Assembly: GCF_021654855.1 (NCBI RefSeq)
Contig: NZ_AP024202.1
Location: 1,736,001 to 1,800,000 of the forward strand
DNA: 64,000 nt
DNA from: Thiomicrorhabdus immobilis
GTDB taxonomy: Bacteria > Pseudomonadota > Gammaproteobacteria > Thiomicrospirales > Thiomicrospiraceae
Direction: 5' to 3'
Shown here: positions 98 through 62,418 of the stretch, piece by piece
Numbering within the stretch: position 1 is the stretch's first letter
Layout: every line of letters starts with the position of its first letter
The notes under the pieces: generated by a model
The model's input: only the letters and a program-made list of their open reading frames with translations
Databases searched by the model: none
Told to the model about the DNA's origin: nothing
Translations under genes and position numbers: made by a program

Positions 98-109
98 ACC
101 AGGCCTGGT
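98..109. repeat. Dispersed 12-bp palindrome, copy 1
   Basis: A perfect ACCAGGCCTGGT in the pheS-pheT gap. Its last base is the final base of the pheS stop codon. The flanks do not extend the palindrome. Confidence 0.9.
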
Positions 110-1107
110 TATTTAAACTGTTGAAGAAAACGTAGGTCGTTTTCAAAGAATTGACGTAAGTCTTTGACGTTGTAACGCAACATCGCAAGACGCTCCACAC
201 CCAACCCGAAAGCCAGGCCGGTGTATTCATCTGGATTGATACCGACGTTTTTTAGTACATTAGGGTGCACCATTCCGCAACCTAACACCTCAATCCAACG
301 ACCATCACCGAATAAATTGGTGGCAATATCGACTTCGGCAGAAGGTTCGGTAAATGGGAAGTAAGATGGTCTAAAACGAACCTTAAGCTCATCGTCTTCA
401 AAAAACTTACGTAAAAATTCAATAATCAATGTACGCAACTGTGCAAAACTGGCATTTTTTTCGATAATCAAACCTTCAACCTGATGGAACATAGGTGTAT
501 GGGTTTGGTCAGAGTCACAACGATATACACGGCCAGGAGCGATGATTCTCAAAGGAGGCTGTTTGTTCTCCATGGTACGAATCTGCACACCTGAAGTATG
601 AGTTCTTAACACGGTGTTTTCGCTAATATAGAAAGTATCGTGCATCGCACGAGCTGGGTGCGTTTCGGGGATATTCAATGCTTCGAAGTTATGCCAGTCA
701 TCCTCAATCTCAGGGCCAGTTTCCACATCAAACCCCGCATTGGCAAACAAGGTTTCAATACGAGTCAAGGTACGAGTAACAGGATGCAAGCTACCTACAT
801 CGGCATCGCGCCCAGGAAGCGTGATATCGACAGTTTCTTCAGCCAACTTTTGAGCGAGCTTAGCATCATCCAACTCTTTCTTTTTGGCGTTTAATAAACT
901 TTGCACAGCTTGCTTGGCTTCATTGATGACCTGACCAGCCTTAGGGCGCTCCTCTGCAGAGAGTTTCCCTAAGGTCTTCATCATTTCAGTCAACTCCCCT
1001 TTCTTACCAAGAAAGTGAACTCGAAGCTCGTCTAATTTACTTAATTCTGTTACCTCAGCAACCGCGTCTTGCGCTTGTGAAAGTATATTTTGAAGGCGTT
1101 CTTGCAT
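109..1107 (-). CDS. pheS: Phenylalanine-tRNA ligase alpha subunit
   Basis: This 332-residue protein charges tRNA-Phe with phenylalanine together with PheT in the cytoplasm. The N terminus (about residues 1-90) is a charged, heptad-like segment fitting the tRNA-binding coiled coil. The rest is a class II catalytic core: motif 2 around 191-210 ([15 protein letters not shown]) and motif 3 around 298-312 ([13 protein letters not shown]). Length matches the family. It ends the thrS-infC-rpmI-rplT-pheS-pheT series, but a strong terminator after rplT and a leader of about 215 bases suggest that pheST also has its own promoter. The ATG has only a weak GGGAC ribosome-binding sequence about ten bases upstream. 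Confidence 0.97.
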
Positions 1108-1156
1108 TTAATAAATGTCCCAAAACGGTTTAATAGATAGGAAACATTTCACTGAG

Positions 1157-1174
1157 ATATTGGCAAGCCAATAT
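1157..1174 (-). promoter_or_regulatory. Small perfect hairpin in the pheS leader
   Basis: ATATTGGC-aa-GCCAATAT is a perfect inverted repeat between the rplT terminator and pheS. There is no T-run, so it is not an intrinsic terminator. It could be a leader RNA structure or an operator. No convincing Phe-rich leader peptide was found beside it. Confidence 0.3.
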
Positions 1175-1264
1175 ACAAATTGAATTCATGAATCAATTCA
1201 ATCAATAAAATCTTTCATAGCTATTATGTGAATAAATAAGGTATTGCGTATGGCTTAATTGAAT

Positions 1265-1294
1265 GAAAAAAATAGGGGACCAAAGTCCCCTATT
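1265..1294 (-). terminator. Intrinsic terminator after rplT
   Basis: A 10-bp perfect stem AATAGGGGAC / GTCCCCTATT with a 4-base loop. On the reverse strand it runs into a T-rich tract. It lies 28 bases beyond the rplT stop and should end or attenuate the infC-rpmI-rplT transcript before pheS. Confidence 0.85.
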
Positions 1295-1322
1295 TAACTA
1301 CTGGCCTAAACCAGTACGCAAA

Positions 1323-60340: not shown

Positions 60341-60439
60341 GAAAAACTCCTTTTAAAGGGTAGAAGTGAATTTCAACTTTCGACTTTACCCTTGAGACTG
60401 TTATACTTAGTAAATTATTACACTTATTTTCGCACATTC

Positions 60440-61726
60440 ATGCAGCAATCTGAATTAGATTTTATTAATACATTAAGACAATCGTCCCGTTACATTGAAC
60501 AACATCGTGGAAAAACCTGTGTTGTCTATCTGCCGGGAGAGTTCATTGCATGTAAAGAATCTGTTTCCCAGTTATCTCAAGACATTGGCTTGCTGTATAA
60601 TTTAGGCCTAAAAATCGTATTGGTGATGGGGGCTTCAACCCAACTTGATGACGCCTTTACCAATGCGGGAATCGATTGGCAACTACATCATCAATTTAGA
60701 ATCACGCCGACCGAACTCATCCCTGTTTTTCAACAAACCATTGGATTGTTACGTAGTCAATTGGAAGCAAATTTTAGCCAAGCCAATTGCCAACAGCCTA
60801 ATCCTCCCACCTTAGTTTCCGGCAACTGGGTCATTGCCCAGCCAAAAGGTGTGATCAATGGCATTGACTTTCAACATACCGGTAAATTAAGGAAAATCAG
60901 ACATCAAGCGATTTCCGACTGTTTGGACTCTGGTCAGGTGGCATTACTCACTCCGATAGCCTACTCCTTAACCGGTGAAGTTTTCAACCTAAATACCTTG
61001 GAACAAGCTTGCCATATGGCAAGTGCGATTAAAGCCGATAAATTGATGATTTACGGCTCTGAAGCACAACTTGTTAATCTACCCAAGCAGCTTAGCATTC
61101 CACAAATGAACATGATTATGGAAAATGCGGCGAATGATGAACAATCCAGACTTTTGGCTCAAGTTGCGCAAACCAACTTCAAAGTAAAACGTGTGCATCT
61201 GATGGACCAAAATAATCCAAGCGCCCTTTTACTTGAGCTATTTTCACGAGATGGTTCAGGAACACTGATTTTTAGTGACCGCTATCACCAATTACGTCCT
61301 GCAAACATTGAAGATGTAGGAGGAATTCTTGCACTAATAGAACCGCTTGAACAGGAAGGTATCTTGGTCAAACGCTCGCGGGAAAGATTAGAGCTAGAAA
61401 TTGATAATTTCGTGGTGATAGAAAGAGATCAGCTCATCGTGGGTTGCGCGGCGCTGTATCCTAACGATGAACAAATGTCTGAACTAGCCTGTTTAGCCGT
61501 TCATTCAGACTACCAAGGTCAAGAACTCGGTGAAGAATTATTGAAAGCCATTGAAATAAAGGCTCAGAAGCAAGCGGCTAATAAACTGTTCCTTCTTACC
61601 ACTCACACTCACCACTGGTTTATTGAACATGGCTTTCATCTTGCCGACATTTCAGTATTGCCACAAAAGAAACAATCCTTATATAACTTTCAACGACAAT
61701 CCAAAGTGCTTGTCAAAACGCTGTAA
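60440..61726 (+). CDS. argA: Amino-acid N-acetyltransferase (N-acetylglutamate synthase)
   Basis: From the ATG at 60440 it has 428 residues; an upstream TTG at 60392 is rejected. An amino-acid-kinase-like domain (about 20-270; KTCVVYLPGEFI, LVSGNWVIAQPKG) is followed by a GNAT domain (about 290-428; CLAVHSDYQGQELGEELL). This is the ArgA arrangement. It starts arginine synthesis and is normally inhibited by arginine. It is divergent from ilvD. Confidence 0.95.
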   Translation: MQQSELDFINTLRQSSRYIEQHRGKTCVVYLPGEFIACKESVSQLSQDIGLLYNLGLKIVLVMGASTQLDDAFTNAGIDWQLHHQFRITPTELIPVFQQTIGLLRSQLEANFSQANCQQPNPPTLVSGNWVIAQPKGVINGIDFQHTGKLRKIRHQAISDCLDSGQVALLTPIAYSLTGEVFNLNTLEQACHMASAIKADKLMIYGSEAQLVNLPKQLSIPQMNMIMENAANDEQSRLLAQVAQTNFKVKRVHLMDQNNPSALLLELFSRDGSGTLIFSDRYHQLRPANIEDVGGILALIEPLEQEGILVKRSRERLELEIDNFVVIERDQLIVGCAALYPNDEQMSELACLAVHSDYQGQELGEELLKAIEIKAQKQAANKLFLLTTHTHHWFIEHGFHLADISVLPQKKQSLYNFQRQSKVLVKTL

Positions 61727-61746
61727 ATTTCAGCTAAAGTGAAATC

Positions 61747-62382
61747 ATGAGTAAAGTAACTCAAATCAAAGACCGTTTTCGCGGTTTTTTACCTGTAGTA
61801 GTCGATGTCGAAACGGCCGGATTCAACCATCTTACCGACGCCCTTTTAGAGATGGCGGTGGTAACCTTAAAAATGGATGAACATGGCATTCTTTCCAGAG
61901 ACCAGACCTATGATAAAAACATCTTGCCATTTGAAGGCGCTAATTTAGAAGAGAGTGCTTTAAAGTTTATCGGCATGGAAGACCCCTACCACCCCTTTAG
62001 GAACGCCATCAATGAAAAACGTGCCTTAACGGAACTATTCGCTCCTATTCAGCAACAAATCAAAGCAACGGGATGCACAAGAGCCATTTTGGTTGGCCAT
62101 AATGCCTACTTCGATTTGAATTTTGTCCAAAAAGCCGCTGAACGGTGCAAGATAAAATCACCCTTCCATGAGTTTAGTACCTTTGATACCGTATCTTTAT
62201 CGGGCCTAGCTTATGGACAAACCGTCTTAGCCAAAGCAGCGGTTTGCGCAGGAATGGATTGGGACAATCAGCAAGCCCATTCGGCCGTCTACGATACCGA
62301 GAAAACCGCCGATTTATTTTGTAAAATCGTAAATCAATGGCCTATTGAAGCAAATCTTATAGACAATTCAGATCCGAATTAA
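61747..62382 (+). CDS. rnt: Ribonuclease T
   Basis: A 211-residue DEDDh exonuclease: ExoI VVVDVETAGFN near 17-27, ExoII GHNAYFDLNF near 117-126, ExoIII with AHSAVYDTEKTADLF. It trims tRNA and 5S/23S rRNA 3' ends. It starts 20 bases after argA and is followed by a terminator, then convergent grxD, the E. coli-like rnt-grxD arrangement. Confidence 0.96.
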   Translation: MSKVTQIKDRFRGFLPVVVDVETAGFNHLTDALLEMAVVTLKMDEHGILSRDQTYDKNILPFEGANLEESALKFIGMEDPYHPFRNAINEKRALTELFAPIQQQIKATGCTRAILVGHNAYFDLNFVQKAAERCKIKSPFHEFSTFDTVSLSGLAYGQTVLAKAAVCAGMDWDNQQAHSAVYDTEKTADLFCKIVNQWPIEANLIDNSDPN

Positions 62383-62390
62383 CGCCTTTC

Positions 62391-62418
62391 AAAAAGCGAC
62401 CAGGCCTGGTCGCTTTTT
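62391..62418. terminator. Palindrome-based bidirectional terminator, with palindrome copy 13
   Basis: AAAAAGCG, the 12-mer (62399-62410) and CGCTTTTT form a 28-bp perfect palindrome. It would terminate both rnt and, together with the next hairpin, grxD. The motif itself provides the stem core. Confidence 0.85.

Follow-up and report, generated by a model that had tools for sequence, protein, structure and literature searches.

A 64,000-base stretch of the Thiomicrorhabdus immobilis genome, which covers bases 1,736,001–1,800,000 of the single 2,539,444-bp contig (G000 in our genome set) and is called the window in the following, carries 13 exact copies of the 12-bp palindrome ACCAGGCCTGGT. Judged from the sequences in which it occurs, this motif is probably a DNA-uptake, i.e. 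self-recognition, sequence of a third family beside those of Neisseriaceae and Pasteurellaceae, the two families for which such sequences are described in the parts of the literature available to us. The reading draws on the core that the dialects share, the excess of copies between genes, the depletion seen on one plasmid and the patchy occurrence among relatives, all of which match the DNA uptake sequences (DUS) of Neisseriaceae and the uptake signal sequences (USS) of Pasteurellaceae. The first-pass annotation of the window had named several candidate roles without choosing among them: The uptake signal is now the best supported, because of the species dialects, the common half-site and the depletion on one plasmid, whereas a cytosine-methylation mechanism of the kind discussed for the highly iterated palindrome HIP1 found no support.

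Within the window, all 13 exact copies and the three looser ones (9785, 10953 and 14735) listed by that annotation were located again. With up to two mismatches allowed, the window holds 20 matches, compared with a mean of 1.22 ± 1.19 and a maximum of 5 in 100 shuffles that keep its dinucleotide composition; the earlier expectation of 0.002 exact copies agrees with our zero-order figure of 0.0018. One correction applies to the count: The copies at 23974, 24177 and 24380 belong to a single 203-bp tandem repeat (23959–24499), so that the 13 copies represent 11 independent places. The window might have been an exception; the genome-wide count, however, far exceeds expectation, with 446 exact copies in T. 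immobilis (2.54 Mb, 176 per Mb) where composition predicts 0.072, and the reversed control word has 0 copies in the same genome. Ten copy-rich genomes, pooled to 444 kb, hold 100 copies of the motif, whereas each of 89 other palindromes built by permuting the letters of its half-site occurs at most once. The shuffles of the window and this permuted-palindrome control rule out chance as the source of the motif.

The conserved word is longer than its 12-bp core. Among the 240 flanks of 120 main-word copies, 209 have a purine at position +2, and T is frequent at positions +4 to +6 (129, 128 and 111 of 240), both mirrored on the other side, which gives approximately AAAnYn-ACCAGGCCTGGT-nRnTTT as the word in full. 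The pooled 444 kb also contain 41 copies with one mismatch, 33 of which deviate in the outer two symmetric positions.

Among relatives, the motif is patchily distributed. Our order sample comprises 62 genomes, all labelled as one family: 27 of them hold 80–718 exact copies of the main word, four hold 16–38 and 31 fewer than ten, including 21 without any exact copy, some of which bear another dialect. In a class sample of 369 genomes, four of them from the motif family, the other 365 hold 0–5 copies each. A scan for paired motifs across 84,980 species returned 38 stretches, 37 of which are labelled Thiomicrospira, Thiomicrorhabdus or Hydrogenovibrio, while the remaining one comes from a metagenome-assembled genome labelled only Gammaproteobacteria. 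On a HisS tree of 30 genomes, the single protein tree on which the kinship of the relatives rests here, motif-bearing and motif-poor states switch at least four times.

Five of the relatives that are poor in the main word (G026, G041, G008, G013 and G007) carry a different iterated word. The palindrome ACCGGCCGGT occurs 1025 times in G026 and 0–15 times in each of the other 61 genomes. AGCAGGCCTGCT has 411 copies in G041 and accompanies the main word in G052, G060, G053 and G055 (172, 155, 92 and 53 copies, respectively). Two further words are not palindromic: RCCAGGTTGGGG, with 256 copies in G008, 303 in G013 and 0–3 elsewhere, and TCTRCCAGGCTGGG, with 292 copies in G007 and 0–2 elsewhere. 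In G005, A and G are mixed at the outer position. The corresponding logos are aAAAat.GCCAGGCCTGGC.atTTTt for G005, aaa.t.AGCAGGCCTGCT.a.ttt for G041, aa..ttACCGGCCGGTaa..tt for G026, AAAATCTGCCAGGTTGGGg for G008 and AAAATCTGCCAGGCTGGGg for G007.

What these forms have in common is a half-site. The element AAAnYnRCCAGG, with equal spacing of the A-tract, is found in the main and the one-sided forms alike; RCCAGG occurs in three of the five forms, AGCAGG takes this part in G041 and ACCGG in G026, and an A-tract flanks each of them, which in G041 and G026 is as far from the centre as in the main word. We infer a half-site of about AAAnYnRCCAGG: Most species would have it twice, G041 in a varied and G026 in a shortened form, and G007, G008 and G013 would have it only once. 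To all appearance, the different words are species dialects of a single signal. A search for other dispersed words of this kind gave none in G030 and G051 (140 kb of each) or in G042 and G025 (40 kb of each). The other copy-poor genomes were sampled for words in 1–20 kb, with G002, G003, G018, G020, G033 and G039 left out, and the number of dialects, five forms with whole-genome counts, is a lower bound to which further ones may have to be added. The strongest repeated word of G051 was discarded as a dialect: It belongs to one long CRISPR-like array (clustered regularly interspaced short palindromic repeats; L154:9907–15770) with repeats of about 28 bp and different spacers every 60 bp. G007 contains a k-mer family repeated 28 times (L039–L040, C1:1–40000), which probably represents an array or else a long gene of repetitive sequence.

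How copies arise and persist can be followed at aligned sites. The hisS site was aligned in the best-scoring 30 of the 62 genomes: The exact word stands at the same codons in 11 of them, and the alignment of the others is in register at every codon and shows substitutions only, without insertion of the motif at any aligned site. Fifteen of the 30 encode RPGLV at this site, 11 with the exact word, two with one mismatch and two (G038 and G040) with three mismatches. G024 and G046, which have 16 copies in all, keep the hisS copy, and the copy-rich G048 is without it. Protein constraint is ruled out as the cause of the motif by this alignment and by the control counts, which is in line with the in-gene readings PGLV, TRPG and DQAWW reported earlier and found correct when worked out by hand.

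Copies are retained between species at about 78% DNA identity. All three copies in a 20-kb stretch of G032 and all three in one of G027 are exact in T. immobilis (four distinct sites), against a background in which identical 12-mers make up 11.0% (G032) and 9.2% (G027) of the aligned sequence. Conversely, seven window copies were followed into each relative: In G032 three are exact, three broken and one unaligned; in G027 three are exact, three have one mismatch and one is broken. In the copy-poor G029, the seven sites comprise three coding ones with one, three and four mismatches, a broken intergenic one and three unaligned ones; these near-matches may be decayed copies or precursors, since the change could run in either direction. 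Taken together, the comparisons of aligned sites indicate that copies change by point mutation under a force that acts on the word itself.

The copies of the window, located relative to our own ORF-based (open reading frame) gene limits and with genes named after Pfam matches, are as follows (no strand is assigned to any of them):

98..109: exact palindrome; shares its last base with a pheS-like gene (109–1107, minus strand)
4800..4811: exact palindrome; intergenic, within the longer palindrome CTCACCAGGCCTGGTGAG
9785..9796: one-mismatch copy, AGCAGGCCTGGT; in the AGC dialect of a relative, both sides show this change
10953..10964: two-mismatch copy; core CAGGCCTG intact
14735..14746: two-mismatch copy, palindromic, AACAGGCCTGTT
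19769..19780: exact palindrome; intergenic
23974..23985: exact palindrome; unit 1 of the 203-bp tandem repeat
24177..24188: exact palindrome; unit 2 of the repeat, also exact at the aligned place in G027
24380..24391: exact palindrome; unit 3 of the repeat
29554..29565: exact palindrome; in an M48 peptidase gene, read DQAWW; G032 has it exactly, G027 and the copy-poor G029 with one mismatch
30896..30907: exact palindrome; in rsgA, read QPGLV; G032 and G027 have it exactly, G029 with three mismatches
33188..33199: exact palindrome; intergenic, within GTCACCAGGCCTGGTGAC
40995..41006: exact palindrome; in hisS, read RPGLV; exact in 11 of 30 aligned genomes including T. immobilis
48937..48948: exact palindrome; in a gene without Pfam match at 1e-5, read TRPG
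51890..51901: exact palindrome; in a DsrE-like gene, read xPGLV
62399..62410: exact palindrome; 3' of an exonuclease-like gene, within the 28-bp palindrome AAAAAGCGACCAGGCCTGGTCGCTTTTT

The tandem repeat, a 203-bp unit present 2.7 times in an intergenic region, has one exact and two one-mismatch copies where it is aligned in G027. With these gene limits, five of the 13 exact copies lie in genes, one on a gene border and seven between genes, close to the eight between and five inside given by the annotation. In a larger context sample of 111 copies from eleven samples (99 of the main word and 12 of the word of G026), classified in the same way, 63 lie in genes where 94.9 are expected, 46 are intergenic and two are on borders. 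Intergenic copies are therefore over-represented, as is described for known uptake sequences (PMC1939737). Of the gaps between the first 100 copies of the genome, the largest (410,570–445,494) was suspected to be an island, an idea that we dropped: The half whose ORFs were read (410–428 kb) resembles, by eye, the cluster of tuf, rpoB, rpoC and ribosomal-protein genes, and strong protein constraint is the simpler cause of the absence of the motif.

A possible further indication comes from DNA that is resident in a motif-bearing cell without being chromosomal. Contig 2 of G021 (96.8 kb; L216–L218) is a plasmid according to its ParA/ParB-like, Rep-like and bundle-forming-pilus-like ORFs, which were named by eye. 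It holds three copies in the 60 kb read where 17.6 are expected (P = 2.5e-5). A driver that works on all resident DNA should mark plasmids as well, and the depleted plasmid would speak against such a driver.

The reading as an uptake signal has to be weighed against several others, among which a binding site for a nucleoid-organising, replication or regulatory protein that acts as a dimer fares best. The perfect dyad symmetry of the word, the A/T-rich stretches about 10–12 bases on either side of its centre and the intergenic enrichment would suit such a protein. We nevertheless consider it unlikely: Hundreds of sites differ together between congeners, one lineage has a non-palindromic form, more than half of the context sample lies in genes and one third of the relatives have no exact copy, although some of these have another dialect. 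Furthermore, the 45 intergenic copies that could be placed fall into 28 co-directional, 13 convergent and only 4 divergent gaps, unlike the sites of regulators.

On account of its GGCC and its two CCWGG sites, methylation was the role that we favoured at first for the word; it also contains AGGCCT, which, like the CCWGG pair, the annotation had pointed out. According to the model of Elhai for cyanobacteria, a HIP1-type palindrome is made and kept by DNA methylation together with methylation-directed mismatch repair, and HIP1 is likewise an over-represented palindrome that is replaced by an alternative one in some relatives and whose one-base deviations lie outermost (PMC4390886, as far as the available text goes). 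Searches with two methyltransferase families removed those two from consideration. PF00145 (C5 cytosine) has no match in 38 of the 62 genomes and PF01555 (N4/N6) none in a different 38, with T. immobilis and G026, the bearer of 1025 palindromes of its own, included in both sets. The co-occurrence with a methyltransferase that had been suggested is not borne out: Both families are absent from 11 of the 27 copy-rich genomes, T. immobilis and ten others, in a search that did not extend to HsdM-, Dam- and Eco57I-like enzymes or Vsr, and PF00145 is present in 14 of the 31 copy-poor genomes. As two dialects are non-palindromic and the plasmid is depleted as well, we hold this mechanism to be quite improbable.

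A Chi-like hot-spot signal of recombination or repair, spread by biased gene conversion without any preference in uptake, would equally produce a genome-wide drive, copies originating by point changes and depletion on the plasmid. Chi-type signals, however, have an orientation and are recognized by conserved enzymes of the RecBCD type, whereas the present motif is palindromic in most of the species that bear it and varies between species of one genus, which makes this possibility very doubtful.

Transcription termination, or another function as an RNA hairpin, could account for the position of some copies: of 54 distances between an intergenic copy and the 3' end of a neighbouring gene, 24 are below 50 bases, the arms are extended by at least three pairs in 18 of 46 intergenic versus 10 of 63 in-gene copies, and the copy at 62399 belongs to a 28-bp palindrome that ends in T. 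As a general explanation it is highly improbable, given the 63 copies in genes and the outcome of consensus scans of 20001–40000 and 44001–64000 of the window, which require a loop of 3–8 and a T-run and gave no site at 62399 or 33188; one site that they did list, at 30903–30916 inside rsgA, overlaps a motif copy. A secondary role of some copies as terminator or hairpin is likely, and such a role is known for DUS and USS (PMC1852404). That the motif is the footprint of a small mobile element, for example of the repetitive extragenic palindrome (REP) or miniature inverted-repeat transposable element (MITE) type, is practically excluded: Three copies do share one tandem repeat, but the flanks of the 120 copies are common only to about 6 bases, and the substitutions without insertion at the aligned hisS sites contradict it, in answer to the proviso of the annotation that all copies might belong to one mobile repeat.

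For the uptake signal itself we propose the following course of events. ACCAGGCCTGGT would be the local dialect of a family-specific signal, and the machinery of natural transformation would have a receptor on the cell surface, most likely a minor pilin, that prefers DNA bearing this signal. Homologous recombination of the fragments taken up would restore and spread copies wherever coding and other constraints allow it. A drift in the preference of the receptor would draw the whole set of copies along, thereby generating the dialects (AGC..., GCC..., ACCGGCCGGT and the one-sided RCCAGGYTGGG), and loss of the preference would leave the copies to decay by point mutation. An uptake receptor as reader of the signal, a pilin as this receptor and recombination as the driver are all inferred here. 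Going one step further, we lean slightly toward a third, independently evolved system of self-DNA recognition for natural transformation in free-living sulfur-oxidising bacteria: Its palindrome may be readable from both sides, by a receptor that makes use of two half-sites, the second of which one Hydrogenovibrio lineage may have given up in favour of a one-sided signal.

Pilin genes and ComEC, which T. immobilis possesses, were inspected with regard to this proposal. A pilin operon with three to four pilin-like genes lies beside miaB (L199, L200, L201), several of its products bear CPDTDGDG-type motifs, and these products match general pilin models only or none. It was considered as the source of the receptor; its presence near miaB in copy-rich and copy-poor genomes alike (14 genomes searched) does not discriminate between the two. 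One of the pilins has about 262 residues in G007 and G008 and about 450–530 in most others, copy-poor ones included; the cases are too few for a conclusion.

Several observations weigh against an uptake signal. ComEC was found in 56 of the 62 genomes, T. immobilis and copy-poor ones among them, and therefore does not discriminate; the copy-poor G030, G051 and G042 also bear the pilin operon, and no receptor gene is tied to the motif. Plasmid depletion rests on a single plasmid, the 443-kb second contig of G032, which may be chromosomal, is as rich as the chromosome (11 copies in the 40 kb read), and contig 2 of G059, which contains no exact copy, is too short to judge (16 kb). The T. immobilis sample of 104 kb shows few near-misses, with one one-mismatch copy beside 22 exact ones, and the spacing of the first 100 copies of the genome is near random, no more even than chance. 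Only one viral contig with two close motif copies was found, IMGVR_UViG_3300012155_000236, which may belong to a phage or consist of host DNA from the motif group. Known families generally have at least 1,000 copies according to the part of PMC1852404 available, versus 446 here, and our literature search yielded no paper on transformation in these genera. Finally, PMC1939737 describes the uptake sequences known so far as non-palindromic, and an exactly symmetric word would fit a protein that acts as a dimer inside the cell. In the present family, most species with the motif have a palindromic word, and only G007, G008 and G013 have a one-sided one; a non-palindromic word is a property of the known members, not of the mechanism.

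The comparison with known systems shows how far the likeness goes. The DUS dialects of Neisseriaceae, which are recognized by the receptor ComP, are also words of 10–12 bases with many copies, fall into dialects sharing a core, occur in and between genes and contribute to terminators (PMC3630211, PMC1852404, PMC1939737; partial texts). Unlike them, the present motif belongs to another family, is an unrelated and mostly palindromic word with fewer copies, and has a presumed role in uptake and a putative receptor. The USS of Pasteurellaceae, of the Hin and Apl types and with ComN/PpdA as proposed receptor, resemble it in their short core with A/T-rich flanks at fixed places (PMC12616744), and a sporadic distribution is reported there for competence (PMC1626085). 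Their core word is unrelated and, in the available part of PMC12616744, not palindromic, and they comprise two types versus at least five forms here. From HIP1 and the alternate HIPs of cyanobacteria, the present motif differs in phylum and word, in having two dialects that are not palindromic, in that neither searched methyltransferase family occurs in T. immobilis, and in density, since most HIP1 genomes have 300–2700 copies per Mb (PMC4390886) as opposed to about 176. The annotation knew of no description of the motif in this group, and our literature search by genus agrees: It gave no report of the 12-mer or of such a motif, with most subscription papers and all preprints outside its coverage, and 'Thiomicrospira' is not mentioned in PMC1852404, PMC5217627, PMC1939737 or PMC4390886.

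If the reading is true, a third origin of uptake signals in autotrophs of vents and sediments would provide independent replicates for the question why such signals exist, namely whether they are a by-product of receptor bias or a selected species barrier. These replicates would comprise numerous species and several dialects, among which the state has changed repeatedly and the symmetry has switched, so that the step from a symmetric to an asymmetric uptake signal would be observable between living species. In practical terms, adding the right word to donor DNA would open a route to the transformation of these bacteria.

Apart from the motif, the window contains a thiamine pyrophosphate (TPP) riboswitch at 5957–6065 on the plus strand (Rfam RF00059, 73.7 bits), upstream of an ORF at 6096.

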